DNA from: Apostichopus japonicus
Lineage: Eukaryota > Echinodermata > Holothuroidea > Aspidochirotida > Stichopodidae
Direction of reading: 5' to 3'
Assembly (NCBI RefSeq): GCF_037975245.1
Contig: NC_092565.1
Location: 16,149,499 to 16,213,498, forward strand
DNA: 64,000 nucleotides
Shown here: piece after piece, positions 20,376 to 58,863 of the stretch
How the letters are laid out: each line of letters starts with the position of its first letter
Numbering within the stretch: the stretch's first letter is position 1
Notes under the pieces: model-generated
Told to the model about the DNA's origin: nothing
The model's database searches: none
What the model saw: the letters and a program-made list of their open reading frames with translations, nothing else
Position numbers and translations under genes: made by a program

Positions 20376-20404
20376 GGAGCACTTATGATAGCACTCATCA
20401 TACA

Positions 20405-26523: not shown

Positions 26524-26531
26524 GAGGGGGA
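26524..26531 (+). other. polypurine tract
   Basis: GAGGGGGA lies immediately upstream of the 3' LTR, the position of the plus-strand primer. Confidence 0.85.
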
Positions 26532-32048: not shown

Positions 32049-35000
32049 TCAACAGACATGAAGATCTACAAAATGTTCTCTGTTCTGAAAGATCGGTCCC
32101 CATGCATTCTTCTGGGTGTTGTCCATCTGATTTGTACATGTAGCTTCCTCTGTGTTTCTTCGGCCCTCAGGACCATGAGCTAGTTTGACTGGTGGAGCTG
32201 TCTTGACACTGGGGGGTTCCAGTTTCCTAAAGACAATGAGAAGATATTGAGCATCATAGTAATTTAACCATAAATGATTTTCTATTCTAGTCCAGTTGTA
32301 GTGTACACAAAGGGGGGGGGGGATTTTGGCAGGGGGTCATGGCTCCTGCTCCACCACCTCCCATAGTCCCATATTGTCACTTGGGGCAAAACGATTCAGT
32401 CTGGGGATCTTTTTGAAATAGCCAGGGAAGAATTAGACAGTAAGACCACTGCTATGGGTGTGCAACCTTTATCAACCCCACATGAAAAAGAAATCAAGAG
32501 AAGTTATGAGCACAAACGGTAAATCGTTCGCACCAGAAGGGCAACAAATTTTTTTTCTTTTTTTCGATTGCGACAGCTTTTCTCCATTACCTGTAAACCC
32601 TTCTGGTCAGAGTGCAGTTAGAATAAGAAATACTGAATCTGCTCCAGAAGATTGTTTTGCAAAATTCATCAACAAGCACACATTGAGACTTGATCGTACT
32701 TCAATTATCATGCTTACAACCCACCACATACACACACACATCACCAGCATTTGTTATTATATCTAGGTAGCATAATCTGCAAGGTTATTGTTGCACCATG
32801 CAAGTACTTCCCCATCAGGGTACCTCCATATGGTTGCATCGTATTAGTAAACATTGTTAGCTATGTAACTGTTGCATCACAAGACCGACATTGTTGATAA
32901 GGGGAAATTTCAGATTGCAAAATTCTGTGCTATATTGCACCATCATTGTGTAAATCAAAGCCTTTCAAAAATGTCAAAAAGACTAGACGCTACAGACTCT
33001 CAAAAATATTGTACTTACAATACAGCTGGAATACTATAGGGTACCTCCATGGGGCATTGTACTAGTAAACATTTTTTGCTACGTAACTGATTGCATCACA
33101 AAACCGACATTGTTGATAAGGGGAAATTTCAGATTGCAAAATACTATGCTATTTGCACCATCATTGTAGATAAGGGGAAATTTCAGATTGCAAAATTTTG
33201 TGCTATATTGCACCAACATTGTACTTACAATACAGCTGGAATATATACTATAGGGCACCTCCATGGTTGCATTTTACTAGTAAACATTTTTTGCTACGTA
33301 ACTGATTGCATCACAAAACCGACATTGTTGATAAGGGGAAATTTCAGATTGCAAAATACTATGCTATTGCACCATCATTGTGTAAATCAAAGCCTTTCAA
33401 AAATGTCAAAAAGACTAGACGCTACAGACTCTCAAAAATATTGCACCACATATAATTGGCTTACACAATGTTCACAAATACCAAGGGTTAGGGTTTTCAA
33501 TGTCACTTACTCATTTTTTGAAAATTTCCCTTTATGAACATTTTGAATCTTTTATGGCCTAATTTTCCCCTCCTCATTTCTAAGGGGATGGGTGGGAGAG
33601 GGGAAGGGGTACTAGTGCAAGTTATATAGAGTAAGAACCTCCTGGAAAAAGATTAGTATTTCAAAACTTTGAAAAATTTTTGCATGTCAAAATTTGGAGG
33701 CAGAATTGATGACCTTAAGGGAAGCCATATTTGCAAATATTTAGTTCACAAATCTGTTGTGTAAGTATCTACTTTCAGGCTGTAAAACTTCACATTTTTA
33801 AAGAACCAAATTGAAAACCCAGTTAAGTATCACATTTGTAACTACCACATATACAGTACTTACTTGGCCTGTTTATGATGGAAACAATTGAACTGTTCAG
33901 TAGGTTGCTATCACCACTGTAAAACCCTGATGGCTATATTTCATTGTTTAGTGCTAGGGATAATGGCTCAGGTAATCCATTTAGACCCTGTACAATTATG
34001 CATAGGTTAGTGAAAGCTGTTCAAAAAGGCCAACCTGGACAATGAACTACTTCTGATCTGCTGTGAATAGAAATGGAACCATCCATATCCATATATGATA
34101 TAACAAGGGAGTTCCATAACAACTCCCTGATAGGCTGATATAACCATACATGTTCATACACTGGGTATATATATATAATTTGTACTCAGCCCAGCTGCTG
34201 CTTTTCAAACTGCAGTCATTCACATGAGTAGATATTTTAATAGTGACCTTTGGTCTCCTTATTTATGATCTCCATAAGCAACCAATCAAAATGCAGTGGT
34301 GCCATCTTAAACACCAATGACAAGAGGGAGATGGTCAGTGTGTTTCCCTCAAGTAAACATATTCCCTTGTGGTAAAACACATGCAGTAATGATAGAACCT
34401 TTGTGTTGTGGGTTGGTGCAGGGAGCTGCTACTCTAACAGGGTAGCAGCTTCCTGGTTGGTGAGAGCAGGAAGTTGGTATGGAACAACTCCCTGGTGAGA
34501 GTACCTGGACAGATCTATGTTACTTAATTTGCTTGCAGTGGTGGATGGGAAAAGAGGGGTACTATTTATTAACTTATAGGGTTTTCCTCAAAACCTCCTG
34601 TAAAAGGATAAAATATTCTTAGAAGAACATTGTACAGGGGTAAATATGAATCCACAAAGAACAAAAAGTATGACTTATTCTTTGAGCAAATACCGTACTC
34701 TGTCATTACACACTCTACACCCTCAAAGACAGGATATTCTGCATTCCTTTGTCACAAATATTATCATTTTTGGATGGTTTCTGATATTTCTTCATCAACT
34801 TAAAATGTACTTCAGAAGTTTCTATCAACTTGAACTAACTAACTCTTCCCCTATTTTTGAGGGGGGTGGGGGGAGTAGGATGGAATGGGAAAGGGTTGGA
34901 TATTTTACTCTTTAATGTCATACTTATTTTGACCTTCTTTTTCTTGATCTACTTGTCAAGCCCACAAGGGTTTTTTGGTTCACTTCCTTCCACTTTTACA

Positions 35001-35647
35001 TGTTTTCTATACTGTGATTGTTATTTACTATGTGGGGGAAACCGCCCTCCCAGAAAAAAAAGAACAGTTCACAATTTTTATGTTGTATTTTTGATTAGTG
35101 ATTTATATTGAACAGTGTCGTAGTGTCTGGAGATAAGGTTAATGTCATAGTTAATCTGCAAAAATAGGGAATTGTCATTCAAAGAAAAATGTAGATCTGT
35201 CTTATATTGCTTCTCTGACAGCAATAGTAGTATTGTGGTGCATGAGAGTGGTGGAGAAATAAGCCTTTCCCCTTTTGAGTGTAAACTAACAAACAGTTCT
35301 CTTCAATGTCAATTTAGGGAAGTGTCTGGCACCAATGGATGTGACTTTCTGTTTGTTACTGGTGTCGCTCTTAAAAGGATTGATATATGCTTAACTACAG
35401 TTTGCTGGAAACAATATTAGTACTGTTACTTAGAGGTGATTCACAGATTACACTATTGAATCAACCGCCCTGTGCAGATACAATGTAAAGACCGATCAAT
35501 ATCGTGTAATAATCGACATTTAATGGAACAGTAAATGTTCAATAATGCTAAGAATAAAGTGTACACGAATCTATAACAATGAACCAAATGTACTCACCTC
35601 TTACGGTCGTCCGTAAATTCATATTCTACTGGTGTTGTGGTATGCAT
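32049..35647 (-). CDS. two-exon gene for a 75-residue protein, family not recognised
   Basis: Exon 1 (35598-35647) encodes MHTTTPVEYEFTDDRK plus AG, with donor GTGAGT. Exon 2 (32049-32226) has acceptor TTGTCTTTAG, completes Arg17 and adds 58 residues to TGA, including KTAPPVKLAHGPEGRR and NAWGPIFQNREHFVDLHV. The two phases fit. The protein is small, hydrophilic and charged, with no signal peptide or membrane segment. The 3.4-kb intron holds a tandem repeat and three of the micro-palindromes. I do not recognise a family, and a middle exon could exist. Confidence rests on coding-like composition and matching splice sites. Confidence 0.55.
32819..33450. repeat. three tandem units of about 215 bp
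   Basis: Units start GG(T/C)ACCTCCAT at 32819, 33039 and 33254. All contain TTGATAAGGGGAAATTTCAG, and the block repeats once more inside unit 2. Units 1 and 3 share a TCAAAAATGTCAAAAAGAC segment missing in unit 2. It lies in the intron of the 75-residue gene. Confidence 0.85.
34104..34129. mobile_element. micro-palindrome 1
   Basis: Arms AGGGAGTT (34106-34113) and AACTCCCT (34121-34128) around CCATAAC; the outer left end reads CAAG rather than CAG. No adjacent duplication, but TGATATAAC occurs at 34096-34104 and 34136-34144, enclosing the palindrome plus 6-7 bp. Confidence 0.55.
34419..34455. mobile_element. micro-palindrome 2 (37 bp)
   Basis: Ends CAGGGAGCTGCTACTCT and, on the other strand, CAGGAAGCTGCTACCCT. 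Perfect 7-bp direct repeats GTTGGTG flank it at 34412-34418 and 34456-34462. Confidence 0.7.
34467..34494. mobile_element. micro-palindrome 3 (28 bp)
   Basis: CAGGAAGTTG...CAACTCCCTG flanked by perfect 7-bp repeats GTGAGAG at 34460-34466 and 34495-34501. The left repeat overlaps the right repeat of micro-palindrome 2 by 3 bp. Confidence 0.7.
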
Positions 35648-36066
35648 TTTGATGCAGTCCGAAACAGCCAAAGTACGTGTAGACAATAATAGTACGGAAC
35701 TATCAGCTTGTAGTGAAAAAACTTCAATACTAGGATTTGAATTTAATATGAAAATTGTTGAACTTTCTTGCGGACTGAATTAAAAACAAGGTATAATTAA
35801 TCAGAGCGTCTGTATGCAACCGACATACGAACAGGAACTGCTGAATTTAGACCAAAGTCCGTCTACGACATCCCAATGCAACGTAAGTGATAATGTCGTA
35901 TAGCGAGCTAGCGCCTATGCATTGTTGTTTACTAGGTGGACCAGCTGTTGAACGATGTTGCAATATATGAAGCATGACCTTAAATTTGACCCTCGTTTGT
36001 ATACAATGAAACATGCTTCTTTCGAATGGCAGCGATCAAAATATTTACTCACGTGATGGTTTGGTA

Positions 36067-37350
36067 TGTACGGAAGCTTAAAAATGCTATCAGCATAAGA
36101 AAAACTTTGCCCATAAGTTGCCAATTTTCAGTAAATTGTTTAGATAACAAGATAATATATTTGCTCAGTTGCTTTAACCGAGCAATTGAACAATTTCCTG
36201 AAAAAAATGTTTAATTGACAACTTATCATATCTCGTAAATTCAACATTTTTCTGCAAAATGTGCAATTGTTCATTTCATTCCAACTGAGCAATTGAACAA
36301 TTATCTGCAAAATGTTTAATTGACAACCACAAGTTCTTTCCTATAATACTACAAACCACGCGCACTACATTACTGCGTATTGTATTTGTATTTGCATACT
36401 GCGTATTGTACACTGCGTATTGTATTTGTAGGCAAATACAGTTCTAGTAACTGTTACGGTTAGATTTGTTCAACACGGCAGCATACAAAAGCGTTCGTTG
36501 TATTCTAAGTCACATATACGGAGTCTCATGCATACTAAGTTCTAGTACTGGCCAAGTCGTTTGTATAATACTCATTTGTCGCGTGCAAACTGTATATGCC
36601 TCAGAGTCCCTTTTTGCCTACAAGAATGTGCTTTTAACATGGAGGTAGAAACAGATTTACCTCACTGCTTATACCCACTGTATTTGACCATGGAGGTAAA
36701 ACATGGAGGTAAAACAGATTTGACATGCCCGAGAATCTGTCCGATACAAACCTAGTAACAACCAAAAGCGGTGCCGCGGGCGTTCTCTGTACAGTACAGC
36801 AAATAGATACGGGTAACTAGCTTTGTGTAAAAAATAAGGTAGACTAGGCTGTACATACTATAGGGTCTTTTGGCTATAAGATCATGTGTATAGCATTATG
36901 TTCTCCTTCTATAGGGGAATCGTGAAACACACCTGACAATGATCACACAGTCACAGTCTCGATGCAAGGGGACTGGGGTTGAGAACGGATCAGTCGTTTT
37001 GTACTTTGGTTTTTCGTGCCCAGGTTCTTTCCTGGGTGACTTTTCTTAACAAAAAGTACCGTTTCATACTGTAGTTTTGACTTTCTCGTACCCCTGTGAC
37101 TGAAATGGTTGAATGCATGAAGTAAACATCTTTCACAATACTATTCGATAACTGCCCTTGGGGGTTTTTTTTTTGGCGATGGTGGGCGGTGAAATATTGT
37201 GAGACCATTCATTTATCCATAGCAACCACTTTCATACCACTAAATCACATGTCTACGGAAGCTTAAAATTGCCATCAACATAAGAAACACTTTGCCCAAT
37301 AAGTCAACATTTTCAGGAAATTGTTTAGATAACATGATAATATCTTATCC
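36067..37350. repeat. dispersed degenerate repeat, two copies
   Basis: TACGGAAGCTTAAAA...ATAAG(A)AA...CTTTGCCCA...AATTGTTTAGATAACA at 36069-36165 recurs at 37255-37340. Between them, GAGCAATTGAACAATT and ATGTTTAATTGACAAC each occur twice (about 36180-36325), and TACTGCGTATTGTA repeats near 36370-36430. Confidence 0.6.
36861..37070 (+). repeat. U2-snRNA-headed retroposon-like repeat, copy 1
   Basis: A degenerate head (TCTTTTGGCTATAAGATCATGTGTAT, seen in two parts) is followed by a tail shared with the copy at 49551. Tail blocks include GATGCAAGGGGACTGGG, GATCAGTCGTT and TTTTCGTGCCCAGGTTCT. Confidence 0.6.
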
Positions 37351-37431
37351 AAAATCAGGAAAATGTTGGATTGCTGTCAGTTACTTTAACTGTCGGTTGC
37401 TTTAAATGTCAGTTGCTTTAACTGAGCAAAC

Positions 37432-37772
37432 TGGCTGGGCGCCAGCCCCCCAGTGAAAAATATGGGGGCGGAAGTATCATTCCGCCCCCCCCCCCCCCCG
37501 CTTCGCAAGTCATAAAACCCCTTTTTCATTTCCAAATGAGAAAAAAAATCTCATTTGGAGCACCAAATTGCATCTAAGGCCAGGTGAAAATGCAAAATTA
37601 TTTACAAAATGGAGTGGGTGTTGAAGTGTGCTATATTGCACCAAATTGCATTTGAGGCCACCTGGAAATGCAAAAAAAAAAATCCAGGGGGACACCCCCT
37701 CCCCTCAGACCCCTCCCCCAGTCCGGCCATCAGTCTTCAGCCCCCACTCAAAAGTACCTTCCTACGCCACTG
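37432..37772. mobile_element. probable hAT-type element end
   Basis: GC-rich block with long C runs ending in TACGCCACTG, a typical hAT terminus seen also in the MITEs here. The opposite end and a target duplication were not found, so the left boundary is approximate. Confidence 0.35.
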
Positions 37773-40700
37773 ATAATTGGGGTTGACTCTAACCACCCCA
37801 AACCCCCCTTATAAACCCTTCTATAGTTCTACACAATAGTATGGTGAATTTTCAAGCCACGGAATCTTATAGAATCCTAATAATTTGTTCGATAGCTACT
37901 TCTTGGATTGCTTACTCGATGTTTGGTGAGTCCGAAAAAAAAATATTTTCGAACGACCGTTTCTAAAAGAAACCATGGATTTGTTTCATCAAAAACTCCA
38001 TCATGTAACTTTCACCGAATTTCGTTCATGTCATGCATGCTGAAAATGAACGAATGAGAGATTTTTAACGCTGTTGGAAAAAGTTTCAAGGTAATAGCTA
38101 TATCATCACATTAACTTATTGATCGTTCTGGCAGGATGCCAGTTGAATATTACATCATCTTCGCATGTTATTTTCTATTATAGTTTTGGCCAAGACTTAG
38201 GCCCCACCTACTGCTCGATTTACACTACTGGCCCTAACCTGCTTACGGTAAATAAAGCAACTTGAAGACGAGGGCGTGCTTTCACTAAGCTATTACACTC
38301 GAGAATTTGACCGGACGCCTGCGTGTTTACTTGATAAGGCTTTGAACAAAATCATTCTTCTCTGTATTTTCCCGCTGTATGTATATATTTTTCTTTTCAC
38401 GATGCTATAATACTGAAGCGCATTGCCGCCACAATTTCGATTTTGGTGTTGTGTGTGAGTGTGTTTTTGGCAGCAACTCGCTTCCGTATGAAATAAAACC
38501 TTATATGTGATCATAATCAAATAAAAATATGATGATGACGACATATGCTATTTATATCACTACACAAAGAGCGTCTGCGTTTTGGGAGCAACTCTTTTGT
38601 GTTCATCGTAGCATGTGACATGAAAGGTGTTATGATTTTATAGTTCCTCGTGATACGAATTCATACGATCAAGTAGTCTTACGGTATATAACTCCCTGTT
38701 ATAAGTAACTGAACGTTTTCATTACGCGCAATCAACTAGTACCTCCTTTAGGTAAACATGTTTGTATGTAATTATATGCCTATCGTACTACAGTTACTTT
38801 CCTGTTATTTCCGATATATGATAGTGAAAGAAGAGAGTATACAGAAGGAAGTCAAACTTGTTTTTTCTTCGCTCAGTATTTATACTTTAACCATGGACGT
38901 TACAGAGTAAAATTTCGATGTGAGATTACTATATGCTATATAACAAGGGTAATCAAACACACATGGTACCCGACGTCAATCGGGGGGGGGGGGGGGAGGG
39001 GGAGGGTGGCTGCCCCATGACAAACAATTTTTAAATCAATGATTTTTAACGCGGGCGTGGGTTCACCATAGGTGGTAGTTTCAAAACCACTTGAACATTG
39101 AGTCCACCCCTGCCCCCCCCCCAATTCTCAGACCAGTGTGAGGGTCCATATAACAAGCAACATAATTAAATCTCCCAGCATTTGAGTGAACATGCCGTTA
39201 GGGTTACATTACCGGTTGACCATATGCAGGACTATAGGCTAAAATAATTATTAAGTTCTCAAATTTTGCCTATTTTGGTGTTGTTGATGTTGGTGTTTTA
39301 CATTGTTTGTGTAACTTAATGAGATAAATGGCACCGAAATGGTAACCCATCCGTTTGTATTCAATTTTTTTTTTATTAACGTGTAATTTGAAATCCTTGG
39401 TTTTAATCTGCAATATTGATTTTGTGTTAGAATGATGGGGCAACGAGTAAACGGGTACACATTTATGACACCCCCTTTTTTTCTCACCGCAAATGAACAT
39501 ATTCATGTATGTCTATAGGTCATTATAATATCGATCTTTTCCCACCCGGCAACATGCCCTCCCATCACATTCCACCCACACAGGGACTGAGACAGGAATT
39601 GGCCATTTGGATGTGCAATATTAGAAAACTGGGTGAGCTCTTTTTGTATCATAAAATTATCGAAGTTCCCGACCCACCCCAAAATATATAAAATTACTTT
39701 GTAAGAGACATATTGTTTTCAAGGATGTCAGGTTATTTGCGGTCACAAGAGGTCAAAATCTGAAAACATTGTTTGCACGATAACTTCCTATATAAGGTAA
39801 CTTCTGATTAACTTCGTAATATGTTTACAGTTTCGGCTTGGTGAAAACTCCAAAAGAAAAGGGCTAAGATGAACTTCACACCTTGTAGATTTTACACATG
39901 CATACACATAGGGCCAATTTTTCGTGGCGGTGAAAGGTCACTTGGAGGGCACAAGAGATCAAAGTCTGAAAACTTTGTACTCCAAAAGTATAACTGAAAT
40001 GAATATCACAGTGCATAGATTCACCTTCGTACCTAAATGCTATTGCTTGCTTTGGAGGTCAAGGGTCACTTTCAAGTTGTGTAAACTTGAAGGTTTACAT
40101 TAAATGTTCTCATATAAAGCATGGCAAGGCCTGTTGGCTTCCTGGTTTATCCACACATTATGGCATCTTCAAGTGATGACCTCAGCTGGCTTTGCGTAAA
40201 CACAGACCTTTTGATAGAGTTCCAATACAAACAATATGAGTTTGAGTGTTGTTGCAGCAATAACCTATACACGATATTGCATATCAAGGAAATTATATAT
40301 GAGCAAAACCATATAACCGTATGTAAACTACACAGACCCACTGTAATATTAACTACTTTCGGTGAAGGGGAGGGGGGGGGGCGGGCTGAGGAAACATTTT
40401 ATGAGAAATTATAGCAGATTCGTGCTTGGGATGAATGGTAAGACCTTGGATCGAATATCAGCTATATGCTCATATTTCTTACTGTTTTACCATGCAGGTA
40501 CCTGCTATAACTATATAACCTTTATGTTAGTGAACAGTTATCTACGCTAATATCCTGTTTGTTCACAATATAGGTTCAAGCTTAACATGTCACCCATGTT
40601 CAAATTGTAATAAAACATTTTCCTGGCAAGTACTGATGACCTTTTAGGACAGAGGGGGAAATATTGACAATTATCTTTCCTTGCCCGCCATATTGCCTTC

Positions 40701-42162
40701 GTGAATAACTAAATTGTTATGACTCAGCTCAGTGAAGTATCATGACACAATGGAACTGAGTGCGTGTAATTTGTTTTCTTCATGACGAATTATATTTGAT
40801 TACTATAGTAACGTTATGGTGGATATCATTACCGTAGTATATATATATACGAATATGCAACCGACAGACGGTACTTTCTGTGACCCGGTGTCAAGTAGAC
40901 TTGACCAAGTCGGTTATCATAATACGCAAATAAATTAGCTGTAATGAATCATATGACGTGAGTAGTCTTATCTATAGGCCTACGTCTGCATCATATCACT
41001 CCCAGCAGCTCGAAGGAGTAACGGAAATACGAAACGGAAACATTCCCATAGTTAGATCAATATATGCGACGCTAAATCAATCGAAATATAGACTTGTTAT
41101 GGTGAAAGTATATTTGCACTGGTTTATGTATCAGTACATATAGTGCAGGGGAAACATACACGCGGCAGCACTGATGTGAGATCGGTGTTTGTTATGAGTT
41201 CTGCTGGTGATTTTGCATCACACGCAATATTTGACAGATAATGGGAAGTTCGTGGTGCTTCAAAAAGGTCAGTAATTTCTGTGTTATTCCATTACGGTTT
41301 TTATTACTTTATTTCTGATAATTATGGTCATATCCACTAGAAGACATTTCAAAGGATAGTATTTTGAAAAAAATCTAGATATATAATCTTTTCGGAAATA
41401 TTTCGTCCTTTGTCGTGCAACAAGTTCTTTGTTTATGTGTTCACGTTACTATACATTGCTTGTATAGTAAGATAGTGTGCAATTTTGAATACTTCGAGTG
41501 TTGATAAATGGAGAGAGTCGAAGAAAGAGAAACATAACCGGATTGGGGGGGGGGGGAGATGGGGGGGGGGGGGGGCGGAGAGGAGGGTAATGGAATCTCG
41601 AAGGGTGAGTGATAGGTTGACTAGAAACATTTCCACGTGAACTGATTTAGGTGCTCTTTCCTTATTATTATTTTGTTTACACTCGTGCTTGGACATCGTT
41701 CATTCTTTTCGAATGTATATGAGCAAATATTCTTTGATGAAGTCGAACGGGGATAAATTAGCACACAAGTAAGAACCCAGTTCATAACACTAGAATAGGC
41801 CAAAAGCAAGCTGTTATATACAAGATAACATATGGGAAAGAGTGTACGTGCCGAGTTATACTCTGATAGGCATATAGCAAAAGAAAATGAAACCTTTTTT
41901 ATATAATGAGTTGACACTTTTGATGTAGTGTTCTTGGCTTATTCAGTTTTATCTGCTTAAACAATCTATTAAATTTCACTTGCTGCATTTACTGATTACA
42001 AGGTTTATCGCATATACAGGTATCGACTAATCCAGAAAATAAGAATCGAAACATTCACCCCCCTCCTTCCCCTCTCCCGTTATCCCTCTCGTGACCAATC
42101 ACGGATAAATAATTCCCTCATTCAGAGGGGTATCATGCTGAGTATATAGTGTTTTAGGGGAG

Positions 42163-42593
42163 CAGTGGCGCATACATAATTTCAAAGGTGGGGCCAAATT
42201 CCACCACCGCCTGATCTAATATATATGTAGGGAGTGAACCATGATGGAAGGGTCAAAGGCGAATCAAGGATTTTATAAAGAAGGGTGTGCGGCCCTGGGG
42301 TCGTTGGGGTTGGCCCCGCAGAAAAATAGAATATAAAGTGAAGACGTCAAATAGTGTATCCTGTGGCATATTTAGACTTTACCTTCGGCCTGATAAGTAG
42401 CGACGAAAGGTTGTGGAATACTAGCCGAAATACTTTTGATTTTTGTGCGGTTGAAAAGGAGGGTGCACATCCAAACAAATGGTCTAATTCGTTCCCGGCC
42501 GAATGTAAAACTCACCCGACTGAAGCATTTCTCCCGCTACTGACGATGTGGAGGTGGGGACGGCTCCTTCTCCCTTTTCCGAGCACGTCACTA
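42163..42593. mobile_element. probable decayed hAT-type element
   Basis: Starts CAGTGGCGCATAC and ends near GCACGTCACTA, which could be a mutated GCACGCCACTG. The flanks TAGGGGAG and AAGGGGTAG are only a partial target duplication. Confidence 0.4.
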
Positions 42594-43393
42594 AGGGGTA
42601 GAGGGAAGGGGTACGCAAAACTTCATGTAACTTGACTACCTATTTAGATTAAAATGTCAAATCCTATACCGGCAAAATGGAAAATGATAACCCAACCTCT
42701 CGACTTAATCTGGACATGATAACCCAACCAATCACCTTCATCTGCACATGTTTTGTACCCAAAGTGAACTTGAAGCAAAATTATAAGTAACAGGCAAAAT
42801 AGGGAAACTGATAACTTTCTTTCATGTTTTTCCCTAAAGTTTTTATCCAATTTCTTGATTCAAAATTGGGATTACATCTGTAACATGTACACATTGTATA
42901 TATCCAGTGCTATAAAGATAACTTTACTTCCCTGAGGGAAACATTGGAACCCTACCCAGTGAGTGCAAGGGTCAAAACAATAACGTGAAAAATAAAGACA
43001 AACAAAAACAACTAAAGGGAATGCAAAACGTCTTGAGACAAACAACTGTTTGCTTCAAGTTCACTTATGGTACAATCTGTGACACTTCCAATTATCATGA
43101 TATCTCAAATATACAATGTAGGAAATGCTTGCAAAATTCATCAGGATGCTTAGACTGGTGTTCCTCTTTCATTCGTCGAATATATCTTTTCCCTCTGGAC
43201 TTTCCTATACGGTTTTCACGAAAGCTCTTGATCAGTGACCATCGTTCAATCAAGTGACATAAACTGTGAATATGCTAGATGATGGTCACTTCTTCATGAT
43301 TATAGCTGAAACTGTCAGAGCCTGTTTGAGTGGGATTTTGTAATTGTCTAATTTCATTCTCAATACCTGTCTATAAATTAGTTGGATATAGTC

Positions 43394-43789
43394 CAGGGTT
43401 GTCCAACCTTTTGCAGAGGAGGGCCACATGGAATGATTACGATGAAGGAGGGGGCCGCATGAACCCTACGCTCGAGTTTTTGCCCGAAGCCAAGGCAACA
43501 AAATGTGAGCACTGCGCGCGGAGCGCACTGATTTATTTTCCTTCCTGATAAACAGATGAATAAGTTCAGCCGCCCCCCCCCCCCTCCGCTGACAGAGTGT
43601 CACACAAACTGACCTGTATGTAGTTTTTTTTTGGACCCAGAAGGTTCGAATGATTGATTATTTAGCTTCAAATTGTTATCAATAAATCTGCTCACTAAAA
43701 TTTCGAACCGTAGAGCATCTCTGGCGGGCCGGACGCAACCCTGCGGCGGGCCGGACTGTGGCCCGCGGGCCGTAGGTTGGACAACCCAG
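43394..43789. mobile_element. hAT-type MITE, 396 bp
   Basis: Terminal inverted repeats GGGTTGTCCAACCT and AGGTTGGACAACCC, with outer ends CAGGG and CCCAG. A perfect 8-bp target duplication ATATAGTC lies at 43386-43393 and 43790-43797. The GC-rich ends (GAGGGCCAC / GTGGCCCGC) also pair. No coding capacity. Confidence 0.92.
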
Positions 43790-44382
43790 ATATAGTCAAA
43801 CCATCCAGTGGAGTATAGTTCAGACACTTTCAGCAGGCTTTAAAAAAAGGAGAGGGGGGGGGGGGGGCTGAGTGCAATAGGCTACTTGTAACCGTGAAGT
43901 GTTGAGTTGTTTTCTGTTTTGCAAACCTGTAATTTAACAAGCCAATTCGACCTACAATTATGTCATGCTAAAGTGATAATATGGTTAATTTGTAGGCTTT
44001 TATATCTGGGGGTTTTGAATCCAATTATTGCTAACATTGAGGAAGCATCACTATCACACATTGTTAACTTGCTTCAGTGAGAGGAAGTACGTGGAGCGTG
44101 GCAGTAAAATTTCACTTTCTAGCTTGAATATAATTGCGGCTAATATTCTTATGAGTTAAAAGGGTCTGCCACTTTCAATGTGCGACCACGTAATACTGGC
44201 CACATACAGAGATATCTATATATCTATAGATCTTTACATATGACTTATAATTGACAAATAAAGAGGTAAGTTTTAGAATATATATTGGAATTTTCGGTCC
44301 CCTTGGGACCTTCGTCAGCAATACTTGGCAGTCGAATGAAAATTACAAAATGTAACACAATGACGCCAGTTGCATTGATGGA

Positions 44383-44420
<38 letters not shown>

Positions 44421-44426
44421 TATAAA

Positions 44427-44514
<88 letters not shown>
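44383..44514. repeat. (TA)n microsatellite
   Basis: About 130 bp of near-pure TA with a few interruptions near 44416-44432. Confidence 0.95.
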
Positions 44515-44519
<5 letters not shown>

Positions 44520-45348: not shown

Positions 45349-46839
45349 ATTTGTAAAACGGGCCGACTTAACAACAATGAAGAGCGACCGATATTTATCT
45401 ATTCGTCCGGGCAACTTACACATGACCCTGGGTCACATCTTCCGTCATGTTGTGTGGAACCGGGAGAATGTAGACCATACTGTAGGGACGAAAAGTCTGG
45501 GCCGAGAATCACTGGGATGTACTGCAAAAACTGTCACACAGAATGGCTAGACAGAACAGCATATCGTCTCTCAAACTTTAACAGCGATGACCAGATAACT
45601 GTGACCGTTGCTAAGGGGAGAGAATCGACCTTTGACCCGTGCAACAGCGCGGCCTTCAACATCAGCACAGAAGAACCGATTATACTGACCAGACGGGTTC
45701 CAACCGTGGAAAGGATTTCTGATTTCTTTCGCTTCCTGATGATGTCAATCCCTCAAAGGACAATCATTGCTCGTCACTCGGATATGGACACACTCAAACC
45801 TGGCGACCATGTCATGTGGCATCGGCCCTGGGCAGTTTGGCACCATCAGTTAATAAGGAGAAGAACGGGACATCTGACTTACGATATCATTCATTTTTAC
45901 ACAAGAGATGATGAAGAAATGAACACGTTTGGATTCGAGGTGGAAATATTAGAAAAGAAAGATTGCAATTTCGCTGAAGAACATGGGACGCTATATAAAA
46001 TTAATTATAGTCGTACCATCCAAAGGGAAAACCCCGAACGACTCACATTTGACAGGGCCAACGCCAAACTCCACGAGAGGGGCTACAGACTGTTCACACA
46101 CAACTGTGAACACGTGATCTCTTTTTGTAAAACGGGTCGACTGGTGAGTTATCAAGTAGGATGGCTGAAAAAGGAGATCGCTTTCTTTGTGATGAGGGCA
46201 GTAATCATCATTGTCGTCATATGTGGTGCGAGCTTTGCAGACGATCAAATGACTTCGAACGAAACCATCACAGAACCACAGCGGGTTATCAACTTAATGC
46301 AAATACCCTACATTTCGTCACCAAGTCCATCTGCCGCTAGCTCAACAATGACATCACACACTGCAGGAATGGTAACCACTCCAGCAGGTCACCCTAGCAG
46401 AGGCGATAAATCGGAACTGGTAGAGGGTCTCTCAATCACATGCTTCGAATTTTTCATGTTTGTTTTTGTGATTTGGCGCCATTACAAAGCTTATAAGTGC
46501 AATGGGATCGATGGCGTAGATTTTACCCGCCGATGTGGTGAGGCCTTTTTGGAAATGGTGTCTACACTGATTTTCTTCTATGTTCACATGATTATTGTTT
46601 ATAGTGTCCATTCGCACGTCAGTTTGTTTGGGGACATCGGTCTTGCACTACTGCTGACTCTCCCAGGTAAACTGATTGGATTCTTTCTAGGACAATACCT
46701 TTGTCAAAAAACTATCAAAGAGTATTTTGCAAGTAGTTTTCGAAAATCTGGCAAGTCGGATTGGCTCTTAGATAGCGGAAGGATGTCCACTACCTCATAC
46801 CGATCGATTGAAGCCTCTGTAAGCGCTGAGATTGTTTAA
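45349..46839 (+). CDS. LRAT-domain multi-pass membrane protein (last exon)
   Basis: The reading frame is open from an acceptor-like TTTATTTTCAG (ends 45348) to TAA at 46839. The first in-frame ATG is 45517 (441 codons with stop); use of an upstream exon is equally possible. LRAT-type domains are NlpC/P60-fold thiol acyltransferases acting on lipids. The domain runs from LKPGDHVMWH through HHQLI (catalytic-type His at 45841-45846) to THNCEHVISFCKTG (Cys at 46105-46107). A Cys-rich start has C-X3-C and C-X2-C pairs. After the domain come a hydrophobic segment (MRAVIIIVVICGASF), a Ser/Thr-rich loop and about three more membrane segments (EFFMFVFVIW, LIFFYVHMIIVYSV, LALLLTLPGKLIGFFLG). The 3' neighbours are repeats. 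Confidence 0.85.
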   Translation: MCKTGRLNNNEERPIFIYSSGQLTHDPGSHLPSCCVEPGECRPYCRDEKSGPRITGMYCKNCHTEWLDRTAYRLSNFNSDDQITVTVAKGRESTFDPCNSAAFNISTEEPIILTRRVPTVERISDFFRFLMMSIPQRTIIARHSDMDTLKPGDHVMWHRPWAVWHHQLIRRRTGHLTYDIIHFYTRDDEEMNTFGFEVEILEKKDCNFAEEHGTLYKINYSRTIQRENPERLTFDRANAKLHERGYRLFTHNCEHVISFCKTGRLVSYQVGWLKKEIAFFVMRAVIIIVVICGASFADDQMTSNETITEPQRVINLMQIPYISSPSPSAASSTMTSHTAGMVTTPAGHPSRGDKSELVEGLSITCFEFFMFVFVIWRHYKAYKCNGIDGVDFTRRCGEAFLEMVSTLIFFYVHMIIVYSVHSHVSLFGDIGLALLLTLPGKLIGFFLGQYLCQKTIKEYFASSFRKSGKSDWLLDSGRMSTTSYRSIEASVSAEIV

Positions 46840-49550
<2,711 letters not shown>

Positions 49551-49853
49551 CTCTTCTCGGCCTTTTGGCTAAGATCATGTGTAGTATATGTTCCCTTTCG
49601 AGAGGAATCGTGATACACACCTGACGATGATCACACAATCACAGTCTCGATGCAAGGGGACTGGGTTTGAGAGCAGATCAGTCGTTCGGTTGTTTGGTTT
49701 TTCGTGCCCAGGTTCTCCGTTTCATGTGTGACTTTTCTTAAGAAAGTATCCTTTTGGATGGAACCGGGCTGGGACAGAGAGTGGATCAGTCGTTTTGGTT
49801 ATCGTGCCCATATTTTATCTTGGGTGACTTTTCTTAGAAAGTATCTTCTTTTT
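49551..49853 (+). repeat. U2-snRNA-headed retroposon-like repeat, copy 2
   Basis: Starts CTTCTCGGCCTTTTGGC then TAAGATCATGTGTAGTATATG, nearly the first 44 nt of spliceosomal U2 snRNA. After TGTTC it departs from U2 and joins a tail shared with 36861-37070. The tail module (GATCAGTCGTT...CGTGCCCA...GTGACTTTTCTTA...AAGTATC) is present twice here. Confidence 0.75.
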
Positions 49854-50826
49854 CGATATTAAAATAATTGAACAAATGCTTTGTGCTTAATCGCAACCAT
49901 CCAACAGCAGCAGAAAAAAGGGAAGGGGGGGGGGGTAGGATATGGTTATACAAACCCGTCATACAAAAGCGACACAGGCAAGTATTCAGTCACACAAAAT
50001 AATAAACAAATTCAGTTCAGTTTTACTATACATGCATATTCAGTTCATGTATACTCATGAGAAATCATCTAATAGTTTAACAGATCGCAAACGTTAAGGA
50101 ATATTCAGGATAAGCTTCAGCCTAAAAAAAGAAAAGTGAACTCCAACCAACCGCATAGAACAATCTTCGTCACAACGAACACCCACAGAGAGCTATAAAG
50201 AGTGGAGGGGGGGGGGGGGGGTTGTGTTTCGTTTGAGAGATATTATAGTTTAGAAGTTTCCGACGAGGAAGCAATTTTTGTCAATGTGTGATGTCATATT
50301 GCCATTACCAGGCGAAGTAAAACGTTTCATTTATTTGTTTATCTTTTCTTGATATTTTCAAGTTGAATTTAAACATTGTCCTCAGTTGAGCATTTAAGGA
50401 GCATTCTTTGAGGAATATCATGAAATCCAGAATATCTACAAAGAAGAATCACTAGCACTCCAGTTCTGACTTAAGTCATCTTATCATGAATTGTTAAGAT
50501 TTGTTCCCCATTCTTACAGCTATTTATCTGTATAATCGCTCGCAAATATTCACAGGAAATGTTCTTGTTTTCTTTGAAGAATAATGTGCTAAGAAAATGC
50601 GTTAGTTTGTTCATGGAAATGCATTTTCCATCGAATATGCCTTTAATTTAATGTCCATTGAGTGTGACGAATATCGTTATGAAAGAGCAAATCTAACAAC
50701 AGATCCAGAGACCAGCATACCTTAATGAATACTTAGGCTGGCTATTCCCAACCTGTCGGTTACGTCACTATGTAGAAAACAAATTCATCCCCGTGAAACT
50801 CAATGGTATCATCCATAACTCACGGT

Positions 50827-52621
50827 CAGGGGCGGGATTTGAGTTATGAAAGTGGGGGGGGGGGGGCAAACCTGCCAGCAAGACTATCTAAGCGGAGCGC
50901 CACCATCGGTTGGCGCGTAGCGTACAAGAAATTTTTTGGCTTTACAAACCCTCCAGATGGCCGGAAACGGCACTTCCCGAGTGCTCTAAGCTGCATGTAC
51001 CCATCCTTGAAATATGGATCTCATGTCTGCAATTGTATCTAGATAGATAATTATCGTTTAAAAATTTGAAGAGGATTGATAGTAGAACATATGGTCAGAT
51101 GTTGATGTACAACTTTTGTTATACGTCACTATCTAAGCAGAGCACCATCATCGGTTGGCAAGGAGCGTCGAAATATTCGATGAAAGGTACCCTTAGATCG
51201 GTAAAATTAACACCCATATAGGCTTTAAATTGCATCTAAACAATTAATGAACGTGTGTAAATTTAGGGAGGACGGATAGAAGAACTTATATGGTGAAGTA
51301 CAACTGAAGCTTATACGTCACTATTTAGGCGGTGTACCACCATCAGTTGGCACTGCGCGTCGAAATTTAAGCAAAAAGGAAATCCTAGATCAGCAAAAAT
51401 GACACCTCTGGTAACAATAAATCGCATCTAGACAGTTCTTTCCCCTAAAATTATTAGTATATTGTGCATTGGACCGATCAAGAATATGTTCAGCACCCAA
51501 CTCGAAATTCTCCCCGCGGTCCCCACTTCTTGGAGCACTTGGCAAATATTGGGGACTGAACATACCTTTACCCCCCCCCCCCCACCGAAACGGTGGTGTA
51601 GCCACGGGTGTTGGTCAGAGGGGGTGAGAATGGTCTGTAGGGGCGCTTTCGACACTATCTAAGCGGAGCGCCACCACAGGTTGGCGCGGAGCGTAGAGAC
51701 ATTTTTTGAGTAAAGATACTCCCTAGATCGCCGGAAATGACCCTTTCTGGGCCTTGCTAATTTGCAGATAAACGAAGAATAAATAGCCGTTAGAGCATTT
51801 TGTCAGAAAATTACACCAAAAAATATGTGACAAATGTCAATAGGTAGATGAGAGTGCAGTAAAAATGTCAATAATCGCGAATAAGTAAAAAGTGGTAAAA
51901 AGCTGAAAAGGGCGCCAGCAGTCCATTTAAGTCCGTCAGGGGGGGGGGGGGCATCCGCCCCCCTGACTGTATGGACGCTCCGCCACTGCAACGAAACTGC
52001 CGAGTGCTGTATACTGTAACAATGGATTTAATTTGTTACTGTGTTAGTGCCAATTTGTTATTTACATTATTCGATTTGCATGCATCATTCCAGGATTTCG
52101 AGCAGTAAAAAATTACATCGGCATTGCCATTGCATATTGTTGAATGACACGGGGGGGGGGGGGGTCATGTGTCAGTGTATTGAATTTAATTATTGATATA
52201 CCCAATATGCAAATCTGGCTTTCGTAAATCGTTTCTCTGGATTTAGTTATTCAACGCATTCAGTAGAGCAGCACTTGAAAATCAATTCCTGAAGCTAGCA
52301 CTGTAGCACATGCCGTGGATTCATCACATGCAGAATTGAATCACTATAGTGTGTTAGCTCCAGGATTCGTAACCTGTGCTGCGAACCATGTGCTAGCTCC
52401 AGCTCCAGTTATTCTGCATGCTACATGTTACGATTTTAAACACAAATTCTACTTGGATTCGAAACAAACAGGCCTATATGATAGAGCTGTTGTGGGGGAA
52501 TAATTACGATTAGGGTTGTGCACATTTGTCTGCAAAGACGACAAAAAAGTGAACTAAGGTCTGGGAAAAAGTGGGGGGGGGGGCAAATGCCCCCTCTTGC
52601 CCCCCCGCAATCCCGCCCATG
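50827..52621. mobile_element. hAT-type non-autonomous element, 1.8 kb
   Basis: Ends CAGGGGCGGGATT and, on the other strand, CATGGGCGGGATT. A perfect 8-bp target duplication CTCACGGT lies at 50819-50826 and 52622-52629. Inside are diverged copies of a hairpin-like motif (50883, 51128, 51320), a nested MITE (51591-51988) and G runs near both ends. No transposase frame was found. Confidence 0.88.
51591..51988. mobile_element. hAT-type MITE, copy 2 (nested)
   Basis: 398 bp, highly similar along its length to 17078-17476. The right end is GCTCCGCCACTG and the left end a diverged CGGTGGTGTAGCC. Flanks CACCGAAA and CAACGAAA match at 7 of 8 bp. It lies inside the larger 50827-52621 element. Confidence 0.88.
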
Positions 52622-53453
52622 CTCACGGTTGTGTTTTATCATTTTGCATTGTGATTTATAAAGTTACATCATGTACAACTGATGTGGACAATGGAAGACT
52701 GTATATATTCGTGCAGAAATATTGAGCTTCCAAATGACATGATAACGCAACTCATAGAAACCATGGCCATGATTTTGATACTAATACTAATTGTATATTG
52801 CATGTGACTATTGTGTCGTAATACATGCTTGGCTTCAGAGTGCCTGGTATATATCATTATGCGTAAATTTGTGTTGCTATAGGCAACTTACTATAAAGAC
52901 AGTAACGTGTGAAGTGTACCGCCCACCTGGCACCGTCAATATTTGGATTTAAACTATGAAGCATTCAGAATGGCGTCAGACAATTGTTTTCAATACTCTA
53001 CTTCAGATAATATATAAATAGGCTCTCTCATCATAATCTAGTAAAAATCATAGCAAAGCCATACTCTTCCTTCGCAGTATGTCTTGAAATAATGCTCCCA
53101 TGTATTTTTTTCTGTCGCGGATGAATATTAAGTGTAATCAAGCTCTTGAACCAGCTCCTATGCTAATAGAATCTTGTCATGGATCGAGGTAGAAATAACT
53201 TTGCCGACTGTATCTTACACTAGACTGGTAGTTTCTTTATTTGTCTGACAAGCTTATGTTACAACATCGATTTACTTGATAATTCTCCGAAACAAACCAG
53301 AAAGGGCAAAAGGTGGCGAGGGACGAGCTAGAGACGAAGGAATCAAGAACTTGATGGACCCTGGATATTCCTAGTTCTTTTAGATATGTGCTAGAGGCCA
53401 GAAAGTGTGTTCCTTCCTTTTCAAATGTCTTAGCATACACAAGATATTCGATG

Positions 53454-53625
53454 AAGAATGGGGAAGAAGCTAATGGAGGTGGGGAGGCAGAGAAGTCAAA
53501 AGAAAAGCGGAAAGGGAGGAGAGGGGTGGAAGGGAGGGAGGGAGAGAAGGAAGAGAAAAGACGAGATGGGAGGGAGAGGACGGGGGGGGGGGGGAGGAGA
53601 GAAGGAGAGACCGGGTAGGTTGGGA
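53454..53625 (+). repeat. purine-rich (GGA/GAGA) tract
   Basis: About 170 bp almost free of pyrimidines, including a 12-bp G run near 53582. The open frames across it on both strands are low-complexity artefacts. Confidence 0.8.
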
Positions 53626-55301
53626 AGTAGAAAGCTGTGGTGGCTATATCTGTTCCTATATTTTTATGGCGTGCTAGCATACAAAGAGACCAGGGAACGA
53701 TATGCTTTGTCAGCATAGGTTGATCATCATTTGATATTTGGATAGTGCCGAACTGAGAGCAGGAAATCATACTGTACAGTCTGAATCAAACACTTCTCAC
53801 GGAAATACAAGCAATCCTTTCATTATAGGTTTGCCAATAGTAGAATCGACTCTTTCTTTGATATTACCGTTATCAATATGTGTTAATACATCCACTAGCT
53901 ACTGTGGATTCAAAAGACTTTTTTTTCCTGTTGGTTGCCTGGTAACAGTGCTAGGTGTGATGTGGCACGTATATGATTCATATGTTGATATAGTTGAGAA
54001 TAAATGATTAACGCATTCAGGTTTCACACGTTGAATATCCAAGCATGCTAATTGGTACTATGGCGTATGGGATTGGTCAAGGCCACTAGTCAACACGGTT
54101 ATGTTGCTATAGCCTATCTTCTCCAAATAAAAATTACATGCCTAGTATCCCACACTAGGAAGTACCTATTTGTATTCATGCGTGATTCAAAGTACACTGA
54201 TGTCAGTTGTGGAAGGGCATGTGTTTTGCTTTACCATCTATGAGCTCATGTAATAACAAAACAGAAGGTTAAAGAATGGCTTTATACACGGATATAGATA
54301 CCATATGTTCAGTTGATTTGTCAAGGGCGACAAACGGAATCAAAAAATGGATAATTTCATGTGGATACTTTACGGTAAGATGGTGAAGAGACTTTTAAAG
54401 TTACAAGTTATTTCTCTTCGACTTCAACCTGAGCTTCAGACTACGTCGTACAATATGTCTGTATAGATTATCCAAAAGTCATATGAGACAACTGCCTATG
54501 TAGGCCTATAGGGCCAAAGAGGTCACGGATCTGCAAGGTCAATAGGCGTGGGTGCAAGGGATGTAATTTGCATCGTTATATCCCAAGAAATGTGATATTG
54601 TTAACACCCTACAGGCGTTAGCAACCAATATACGAATAATGGACTCAATTTGTAAAAAAAAAAAAAAAAAACATGATTATTACGGCGGCATGTTGTGAAA
54701 TCCTTAGTGGTAAATCAATTCGAATGTTTATGCAAAACTTCACTATGTACAAACTTTGTTTGAGGAAAGAAATGTTTGTGCTGTCAGCATAAGTAGAATG
54801 TATAATTGATAAAAAATGATGTCAGTCATTAAAACTAATCGGAGGGCCAATAATAGAACAATGCGGTAAACACATTTCAAAGTAGGGCAATAGTCCTATA
54901 CTCATAGGAGGAAGTAAGCCATTGCACATATTGGTAAAATAATTTCTTAACTAGGTCTTATACGTTACTTACCTGTATATATCAATCTACCCCTGCACTT
55001 GGATCACTACCTTAAAGCAGTATTTTGCGTCCTTTTCTATGATTTTTCTCAACCTCACTGACTCCACTGTGCCATAACGACATACACAACTAGCTTATAT
55101 ATATTTAAATCTTACTTCAAATGGTGGCATAAAAGTCGAAAAATTTGCAACTTTCAACTTTGTTTTTCTCCAAGATATTTTCCGTTGGGATCCCAATAAA
55201 CCTCGCCCATAATATAAATATTTTAACACTACGAACGTCATTGACCAATTCGTAATACAACACCATGCTTGATTTGTGTACAGTCTATATGGCAGTTGTA
55301 C

Positions 55302-55326
55302 CAGGGAGTTCCATAACAACTCCCTG
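55302..55326. mobile_element. micro-palindrome 4 (25 bp)
   Basis: CAGGGAGTT and AACTCCCTG around CCATAAC, flanked by perfect 7-bp repeats GTTGTAC at 55295-55301 and 55327-55333. Confidence 0.7.
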
Positions 55327-55868
55327 GTTGTACCAACGCAAAGTCTTGAATCTATTTTTTAGCAATGGCTAATAACTAAACCTGCATCTCTGATTGGATG
55401 AATTCAAACTAGTGGGTTTGGGGGAGCTGTATGCGATTAATTTTAAATGTGGAATTTGTCGTGGACACTTTTCTCATTATCTGCAAATATCCTTAATTAC
55501 TCGCCAATTAACGATGTTGGCAGGGAAAAACTTGGCTAATAACTTAGTTTGCTGTTTTGTGATTGATATATGTAAAAAACTTGATGGACATGTCAAAAAA
55601 GTAGAAAACGGCGACCAAACGCAAAGTGCTGCTTTAAAAATGTCTCATAAAAACTGGTGTCGAGGGCTAAGAATTTGATTGACAAAAACTGTTGGCGCTA
55701 TTAACAAACCGGATCATCCATTTGTGAAGGTACACCGCAAGCTTGATTTCATCATCGTAAACAATAAATATACATTTTGAAGAGTAAATGACTAGCGTTT
55801 GCACAATCAAAATACCAATATTCTCAGTCCCTTTCTGCGTGTGTGTTGGTGTGGTGACATACAATTGA

Positions 55869-55924
<56 letters not shown>

Positions 55925-55931
55925 TATAAAT
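55869..55931. repeat. (TA)n microsatellite
   Basis: About 60 bp of TA with two interruptions. Confidence 0.95.
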
Positions 55932-57131
55932 ATATGCAGTAACCGTAGTCGGTATACTACGTTACCATTACTATAATTTATAAATCAATGTTTTCACCTC
56001 TATGTTTTTCACCTCAAATATTTCCAGTGTTTCCCTTCAATTCTATATGCGTCCCTTATCTTCCAGTGAAAGTTGAAGTTAGGTATAGCGTGCATAGGCC
56101 TATTCACTTTACCAAGAAATATATAATTATTTTTTGAACTGGTAACGGATTTCGTTTCGTTCGCGGCCGGCTACTTTCGTCTGTATGAATTTCTTCTGGT
56201 TCGAAACGATACTATTTCTGTAACCTATTAGGCGATGCTTAGCCACTTGCCATTTTACTGCCCCGTCCATATTTTTGATATGCTAACTAAGCTGCTGCGC
56301 AAGAAAGTGTATTATCTCTAGACTAAGGTTTGGATTTGTCAGATTTTCTTGATGAAGAATGGACTTTCTCAATCTGTTTTGTGTGATGTGTCAGAAAAAC
56401 AAACAGAAATATTTTGCGAGTAACATTATTTCATTATACGACAAGAGACATTGTGAAAACATTATGGTATCTTTAGTAAACGATGTGTTTGTATACATTT
56501 TGTGTGGAAACAGAAATATTTCATGACCCACACAACTTGTCAAAGGCGTGACCTTTGATCGCACTCTGTTGTCGCCACGGTGACCGACGCTACGGGAGCC
56601 ATAACCATTCATACATTCTGTTCGTGTTGTTTACAGTACGTGGGTGTGTAGTACAAATCGATGTGACTATGTACTACCTTTACAAAGCAAATAGCAATTT
56701 TAAAAGGAAAAAGGCAAAATGCAAAAGAAAACACAAGATATGAAATTATTAGTTGAATATTAACTCGATCAAGTTGATGTGAAAGTTAAGTGTCGTCATA
56801 GGGATGTCCAGGTGATATTTTAACAGAAGCTTCAGTCAACATTGTTTAAATCTATAGTGAATTGATTCTTTTGTTGGTTTTACACTTTACAAAAGACCGC
56901 TCAATAATTGACTGGGATGCCTAAGCCAATAACCTAAACCAGTTATCGCATCCTGGGAACATGTATATGGGTTTTTACTTCGGACTGTGTGTACCTGGAA
57001 CTATATTAGCATTTATCAACTGCTCTTAGCATTTATCAACTGTTAACGATGATTTTGTAAACTTGGGATGCTTCTTTCTCATAAAACATTTGGAAGAAGA
57101 AAAACATGAGCGGTGAGATTTGCGAGGATCG

Positions 57132-57172
57132 ATGGCTTCTTCCGAAGTAGTACAGCATATGCTAAAAGTAGC
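57132..57172 (+). CDS. possible short first coding exon
   Basis: ATGGCTTCTTCC in good context encodes MASSEVVQHMLKV and ends in the strong donor GC|GTAAGTAA. No matching downstream exon was recognised, so this is only a candidate. Confidence 0.2.
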
Positions 57173-58833
57173 GTAAGTAAATATCATTCAACTGTTTTCT
57201 CTTTAGACATTTAAAAGTTGAAAGATACTGATTTTTTTTTTCAATATTTTGTTATAACATTTAACATGTATGATAACACGGTAGTATAGTAATATACTGC
57301 AGTATATGTTATGGTATAAATATTACTGGGAACAATAATGATAACATTAAACCTGTACTGTGCTGATTATAACATTCAAGCCTTTCACCTAGCAACCCAA
57401 GGTTTCTGGTAGGAGAAGGGCTCGGCAAACAGGCGAGTATAATAGTCTAGTCTTCTTGATATGAGGAGGGCCAGCCCTCGATTTTAGGATTAAGGGAAGA
57501 TATTCTATTGATATGGCTTTCCATGCCACCATATAGGTTGTAGCCAGTGTACTCTCTGTTACGTATTCGAATTTGAGCTTCGGGCGTGGGGGGGGGGGGG
57601 GGGTTTGGTTGAAACCTCTTTTGGGGAGTGGTCTAATTAAATTGAGAGTTGTCTTTTCCCCTTTGAGAAAGTTTTGTTTCTATAGGGGAGTTTAAATGCA
57701 AAATGGTGCTATAATTTTAACTTCATTAGTATATGTATACGTACGTTATAAGATGTAAACCGTTTTGGAAGAAAGGTTGGGTAAATGGAGAGGAGAAGGC
57801 GCATGGCTCCATGCTCCCCGAGTGCAGGGCTTCGAATTCTGCCCTCTATTTATTAATAACATCAAAGTACCTATCAAACAGTACATGTTGGGTAGTCCCT
57901 ATACACAGGTGTCTAATATCTCTATATTGACACAAATGGAGATGATGTGCTTTATATTAAAGTATGAAAGTGACGATCATTGCATCAAAGTTAACAGAAA
58001 AGAATATCGTTATATGCTTATTATGGTTAATCAGGAAAACTTGCTGAGCAGTAGATCACAACTTGCCATAAAAAGAAGTAGCCTATCCATTATCATATAC
58101 ATCTTGAATATTTTATTTTTTTCCAATTTTCCCTGCCGTAACCGCTTCGTCGCCGATGTTTTTGTTGTTGATATTATGGTGGGTGGGTTGGGGAAGGGGG
58201 GGGGGTCAGGTAGGGAACCTCAGTCCCGGGCCCCCAGGCTGACTACGCTATTGCGGATAAGTCACCTTAAATAAACTTGACTACCGAAACAGCGGTATAA
58301 GAAAATATCGGCAAGAAGGAAGGAATACCCGATCGCTGCAATGCAAGCTGTAAATGTTTTCCATGCATGCATTGATCACTGATAACAAAACACCTGGTTT
58401 TGATCATGTTTGTAGCTCGGTACCGTAGCAACCGGTTTGAATCTCCTCAAGTTGTTCTATTTGTAAGGGTAGGATGAGCTCATTTTGAAATCATTTTCGG
58501 AGTATTTGATTCTCATGCATATTGATGTAATATTTGAGATCAATTATCAATTACAACGGCAACCACGTGACTCGGGAAGACTTGTGTTTGAGGGACTGAT
58601 GGGAGGGTGATGGAACCGGCGGGCGGAGGGGCCCGAAGGGGCTGAGACTCAGCCTCGATCTCTCGAAAAGCATTACGCGTTTTCAGAAATAACGTATTAA
58701 GTCTCTGGATTAAAAAACATATATTTGATTAAGAGTGGTATTTTAAACCTTTTGCATAATGATGGAGTCACGGGCGAGGATGGGGCAGTATAGCTCCATG
58801 CACCTCCATCAGTATTTCAAAGAGTGGTCAAAT

Positions 58834-58863
58834 CAGGGAGCTGGTTAGAGTAGCAGCTCCCTG
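58834..58863. mobile_element. micro-palindrome 5 (30 bp)
   Basis: CAGGGAGCTG...CAGCTCCCTG with GTTAGAGTAG inside. Its flanks GTCAAAT and GTCAATA are an imperfect 7-bp repeat. Its reverse complement matches micro-palindrome 2 with a 7-nt internal gap. Confidence 0.65.

Follow-up and report, generated by a model that had tools for sequence, protein, structure and literature searches.

Five related palindromes of 25 to 37 bp lie in a stretch of 64,000 bases from the holothurian Apostichopus japonicus (contig NC_092565.1, positions 16,149,499 to 16,213,498; G+C content, 37.8%), referred to here as the window. Each of them is probably an excision scar (we put the chance at roughly two in three), left where a DNA transposon of the P superfamily had departed and the broken site was sealed by end joining. 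The anatomy of the palindromes, the 7-bp duplications that flank most of them, the lengths of their arms, and the microhomologies available at their joins were read directly from the window. If the explanation is right, old scars of this kind record the tail length, the length of the target site duplication (TSD), and the target motif of a transposase, together with the end joining of its host, and the record can be read from an assembly even after the transposon is gone. It would also mean that the long-tail cleavage described for P in the Drosophila papers compared below occurs in another animal genome, where the tails would be about 19 to 20 nucleotides (nt) long. It would further caution against annotating short palindromes flanked by TSDs by default as tiny miniature inverted-repeat transposable elements (MITEs).

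Anatomy of the palindromes and their flanks

In coordinate order, the copies (E1 to E5) measure 25, 37, 28, 25, and 30 bp (positions are those of the window, and no strand is assigned to palindromes or TSDs). The pattern CAGGRAGYT-N(0-30)-ARCTYCCTG has four exact matches in the window, which are E2, E3, E4, and E5; E1 departs from it only at the opening base (AAGGGAG). A first-pass annotation had described five micro-palindromes with such ends and in this size range. We found all five again, but the range that it gave begins at 34104, one base ahead of the true start of E1. Its division into two subtypes also stood: E1, E3, and E4 (subtype 1) are built from the tip CAGGGAGTTGTTATGG(AAC), and E2 and E5 (subtype 2) are built from CAGGGAGCTGCTACTCTAAC. 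On a longer source element, the tips of the terminal inverted repeats (TIRs) would be expected to read CAGGGAGTTGTTATGGAAC or CAGGGAGCTGCTACTCTAAC.

We decomposed each palindrome into a left and a right arm by using the two tip words, which were inferred from the copies themselves, with up to two mismatches allowed. E1 (34105 to 34129) has a 9-nt left and a 19-nt right arm with 3 nt in common, starts with A in place of C, and lacks a 7-bp flank repeat, its flanks (ATATAAC and ATAGGCT) agreeing at three of seven bases. The 9-mer TGATATAAC stands immediately to the left of E1 and again 6 bp to its right; a common 9-mer turned up in comparable flanks in 290 of 40,000 random placements. E2 (34419 to 34455) joins a 20-nt left arm to a 17-nt right arm that differs from it at two bases, or can be read as 17 nt, AAC, and 17 nt. 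It lies between two copies of GTTGGTG (34412 to 34418 and 34456 to 34462), and the final 3 bases of the right copy overlap the left TSD of E3. E3 itself (34467 to 34494; 19-nt left and 12-nt right arms, with AAC in common) is flanked by GTGAGAG (34460 to 34466 and 34495 to 34501). E4 (55302 to 55326), which equals E1 at 24 of 25 bases and likewise has arms of 9 and 19 nt with 3 nt in common, is flanked by GTTGTAC (55295 to 55301 and 55327 to 55333). In E5 (58834 to 58863), a 10-nt left arm is joined bluntly to a 20-nt right arm. Its left TSD is GTCAAAT (58827 to 58833), and the right copy, GTCAATAT (58864 to 58871), has one T more. Compared base by base (GTCAAAT and GTCAATA), these flanks agree at five of seven positions, and the duplication is complete if the right copy gained one T (GTCAA-AT/GTCAATAT). 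The first-pass annotation had listed three perfect 7-bp repeats with three different sequences and a fourth, imperfect pair; the former are exact at E2, E3, and E4, and the latter is the pair at E5.

The targets of E2 and E3 overlap by 3 bp and lie only 4 bp from each other, which hints at a local hot spot for insertion. We dropped the idea that E2 and E3 stand in opposite orientation, since the long arm places them in the same orientation and a G/A variant in different ones, and also rejected positions 34419 to 34494 as a single 76-bp element (outer flanks equal at four of seven bases, by eye).

Across the family, one arm is always long (19 to 20 nt) and the other measures 9 to 17 nt. The long arm invariably ends in AAC, at 19 nt in subtype 1 and 20 nt in subtype 2, and the two arms overlap by 3 nt in subtype-1 copies and not at all in subtype-2 copies. 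The outer tip is CAGGRAG in nine of the ten arms and AAGGGAG in the remaining one. The two arms of each copy carry the same base at position 8, T in subtype 1 (E1, E3, and E4) and C in subtype 2 (E2 and E5), as expected if a single parent with matched TIRs gave rise to both arms. When up to three mismatches were allowed, the tip words occurred in the window only at the five palindrome loci. In subtype 2, in which E2 and E5 are equal in 20 of 20 bases at different sites, AAC is an unequivocal arm end, and this subtype backs the putative AAC tail end independently of subtype 1.

Chance palindromes or local duplications are a barely conceivable source of this family. The pattern given above had no matches in 100 dinucleotide shuffles of the window, and among 119 scoreable matches to it in a control set of viral contigs, none had at least five of seven flank bases equal, compared with four of the five palindromes in the window. 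We also scanned the window for hairpins (8-bp arms, at most one mismatch, loops of 0 to 24, low-complexity arms excluded). An exact 7-bp flank repeat was present at 3 of 848 hairpins, and these were E2, E3, and E4; the remaining flank repeats were 5 bp long or lay inside an (AT)n tract. No 7-bp repeat occurred in six random windows with matched dinucleotide frequencies (639 to 713 hairpins each), which yielded five repeats of 5 bp and one of 6 bp. A separate TSD scan of the window found nine cases in the 7-bp class, compared with a mean of 1.6 expected and a largest value of 4, but this excess includes tandem-repeat artifacts, and we therefore prefer the viral-contig and hairpin controls. The same scan discards two-letter TSDs and so missed E2. 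Apart from short, weak matches, the 200-bp flanks of the five copies do not match each other outside the palindromes, so that local duplication fails to explain the copies, as the first-pass annotation had supposed.

Proposed excision by a P-type transposase

The superfamily, the position of cleavage, the joining pathway, and a former larger element are what we infer from these features. A transposon would insert at a site beginning with GT and duplicate 7 bp. On excision, its transposase would cleave flush with the flank at the 3' end of the element and, on the 5' strand, about 19 to 20 nt into each TIR. This would leave the TSD and a 3' TIR tail ending in ...AAC-3' on either side of the donor break. 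The AAC of one tail could then anneal to a GTT of the other, the first GTT giving E1 and E4 (25 bp) and the second giving E3 (28 bp). In subtype 2, which has no GTT, the tails would be trimmed and then joined bluntly (E2 and E5). The resulting scar would consist of the TSD, the tip of one TIR, the tip of the other TIR, and the TSD. In the window, the arms measure 9 to 20 nt with one always at 19 to 20 nt, and TSDs flank four of the five copies, three of them exactly. A subtype-1 tail of 19 nt ending in AAC would make a 3-nt terminal match only with partner arms of 9 and 12 nt (19 lengths tried). These joins would yield products of 25 and 28 bp, and all three subtype-1 copies have one of these lengths and the corresponding join, in which AAC is paired with one of the two GTT words of the second tail. 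The terminal overlap available to subtype 2 is at most 1 nt, and E2 is joined without any.

The closest likeness that we found is with P excision junctions in Drosophila; this and the following comparisons draw on parts of the papers cited. The cut that P transposase makes in the 5' strand lies 17 bp within the inverted repeat, and the resulting 3' extensions of 17 nt are called unusual and atypically long (PMC7776569); a P donor site therefore keeps the TSD and a 17-nt TIR tail on each side. Excision junctions of P{wa} comprise, in order, the TSD, as much as 17 nt of TIR, a microhomology or filler, again as much as 17 nt of TIR, and the TSD (PMC2895639 and PMC5466332). The table in section 7 of PMC2895639 lists 66 isolates (68 according to the figure legend). 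Of these, 44 retain the two TSDs along with TIR bases from either side, and 33 of the 44 residues are 25 to 37 bp long (median, 30). Two junctions recur, with 14 of the 66 isolates each, and the probability that two isolates drawn at random have the same junction is 0.096; such recurrence is a precedent for the equal junctions at E1 and E4. Like the palindromes in the window, the two-sided P{wa} junctions keep both TSDs and place TIR tips head to head, with arms capped by the tail length; the joins likewise use microhomologies of 1 to 3 nt, blunt ends, or filler, and the residual lengths are similar. The P{wa} junctions differ in having 17-nt tails and 8-bp TSDs and in being laboratory events, whereas those described here have putative tails of about 19 to 20 nt and 7-bp TSDs at natural genomic sites. 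Among the titles listed by our searches of an open-license library, none described natural palindromic scars of P excision.

The duplications themselves point to the P superfamily, which the first-pass annotation had named as a lead. All four usable TSDs (three exact and one near exact) begin with GT; given the GT frequency of the window, the probability of this by chance is 1.2e-5, or 1.5e-4 when AC at the opposite end is admitted as well. Galileo, a member of the P superfamily in Drosophila, makes TSDs of mostly 7 bp with the consensus GTATTAC, GTAGTAC, or GTANTAC (PMC4168063); the likeness is in the length and the initial GT, while Galileo is represented by full elements with TIRs and none was seen in the window. 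The CA...TG ends of the palindromes also fit P, since the ends of P and of zebrafish Pdre2 begin with CA, but this fit is weak because two hAT-like elements in the window begin with CA as well.

Points against excision and competing explanations

Several observations weigh against excision by a P-type transposase. The sample consists of five copies. The tail length of 19 to 20 nt departs from the 17 nt of P, and in subtype 1 the AAC can be assigned to either arm, in which case an arm may be only 16 to 17 nt. The agreement in length carries less weight than it first seems to: 25 or 28 bp would also result from 2 of 20 blunt joins and, when any overlap is accepted, from 7 of 19 partner lengths, and the probability of three matches out of three by chance is therefore about 0.001 to 0.05, depending on the null. 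This check is also partly circular, since the tail end was read from the same copies. E5 ignores an available 1-nt overlap, and its 30 bp is absent from the overlap-joined products. E1 has no TSD despite its near identity to E4 and stays unexplained, and a mobile micro-element would directly explain why the two share a junction. The GT test was post hoc, with two of its targets (E2 and E3) overlapping, and only one of the four TSDs (GTTGTAC at E4) also ends in AC. P elements and P-MITEs of Anopheles mosquitoes have 8-bp TSDs (PMC1562414), as does Pdre2 (PMC10983969). Like the proposed source, these are P-superfamily elements of animals with TIRs and TSDs, but they are much longer than the palindromes, and the TIR sequence of Pdre2 differs from the tips found here. 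The other 22 of the 66 P{wa} isolates are not two sided, most of them being joins at microhomologies of 5 to 8 nt in which one arm is nearly or fully lost. All isolates came from Rad51-deficient flies (PMC2895639), so that natural proportions may differ.

The source element was not found in the window either. Among wider pairs of such ends, spaced by as much as 12 kb, none had an exact 7-bp repeat, and no Pfam match to a P or THAP transposase appeared among the 24 window proteins scanned, out of 129 stop-to-stop frames of at least 70 amino acids (aa). The longer element with a transposase that the first-pass annotation had proposed to look for did not turn up in these searches of the window. 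The ends at 31702 to 36667 share six of seven flank bases but are poorer and look like a chance pair. Elsewhere, the subtype-1 palindrome pattern had no matches in either the viral or the prokaryotic collection, and the subtype-2 arm had none in the viral collection, the only one searched with it. The 5 viral and 44 prokaryotic matches to the subtype-1 arm were judged to be chance by an estimate for an 18-base pattern in large collections. A search for degenerate further copies gave 13 loose matches in the window, four of which are the scars; the other nine compare with 2 to 12 in five random windows and give no indication of additional copies. One of the nine, at 16140 to 16172, reads GTAGTAC...AACTTCCTG GTTGAAC with a degenerate left arm and is suggestive but within chance.

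The first-pass annotation had taken the palindromes for DNA transposons cut down to two abutting terminal repeats. A transposon origin and the 7-bp duplications are supported, but the palindromes as transposons in their own right are not the reading that we favor; the arm lengths, the common end of the long arm, and the kinds of join speak for excision scars instead. As mobile micro-elements, they would be nonautonomous units of 25 to 37 bp, made of two abutting TIR tips, that were moved by a P-like transposase and duplicated 7-bp targets. That they have different TSDs at different sites agrees with such units, as do the near identity of E1 and E4 and, by eye, an alignment of all five as one family with small deletions and a few substitutions (E5 equals E2 minus 7 bp, and E1 and E4 equal E3 minus one GTT). 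The count that bears on a MITE is five copies in the 64 kb of the window, two of them nearly identical. We nevertheless consider mobile units unlikely: an enzyme cutting at least 17 nt inside each end would pass the middle of a 25-bp unit, which would make its intact release impossible, and the joins and lengths differ among copies in a manner that fits the joining of tails. To our knowledge, 25 to 37 bp would also be far below the size of any known transposon. Loss of the interior between TIRs without a transposase, by hairpins or slippage, would likewise leave the TSDs and outer tips, and inverted repeats can form cruciforms. However, such deletion gives no reason to expect that the long arms of five copies in two subtypes should all end at 19 to 20 nt, and we consider it quite unlikely.

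A different superfamily with 7-bp TSDs, either Dada or hAT variants annotated with TSDs of this length, is very unlikely as the source of the palindromes, whether as scars or as mini-elements. Dada makes TSDs of 6 or 7 bp, and many, though not all, Dada families have multicopy RNA genes as their insertion sites. One tRNA and one U2-like match were found in the window, and none of the five palindromes lies inside either, which argues against the Dada-like alternative raised in the first-pass annotation. As for hAT, a query example in the Repbase paper is hAT families with a "7-bp TSD," and the two window elements that we take to be hAT-like from their ends (17070 to 17484 and 43386 to 43797) likewise start with CAGGG or CAGTG. 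These two elements carry 8-bp TSDs, however, a contrast with the 7 bp of the palindromes that the first-pass annotation had pointed out. In the literature compared, TIR residues this long in excision junctions are shown for P alone.

Other features of the window

The two hAT-like elements are each about 400 bp long, with the TSDs GGCTTTTT and ATATAGTC. The one at 17070 to 17484 sits between coding pieces of an ADP-ribosylglycohydrolase (16225 to 17022 and 17656 to 17955) and has a 90% identical relative at 51612 to 51988. The U2 small nuclear RNA match (49549 to 49639) scored 47.1, compared with the Rfam gathering threshold of 46; its 5' end is well matched, most of the rest is missing, and by its sequence it is probably a U2-derived repeat or pseudogene. 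An overlapping segment (49559 to 49745) is 85% identical to positions 36864 to 37053.

Direct repeats of 761 bp at 18662 to 19422 and 26532 to 27292 are 100% identical and surround a 1,623-aa frame that resembles a retroelement pol by eye, so positions 18662 to 27292 are probably a very recent long terminal repeat (LTR) retrotransposon. A second recent LTR element possibly spans 9489 to 14410, where 614 bases are identical between 9717 to 10330 and 13797 to 14410, a 204-bp unit is doubled at 9513 to 9922, and a frame at 11414 to 12532, between the 614-base repeats, looks by eye like an integrase. At 30798 to 31565, a 78-bp minisatellite comprises about ten copies that are 98% alike, and a minus-strand frame stays open through them. 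A frame at 45454 to 46839 contains an LRAT domain and, by eye, hydrophobic stretches; two protein relatives are 93% and 45% identical to it.

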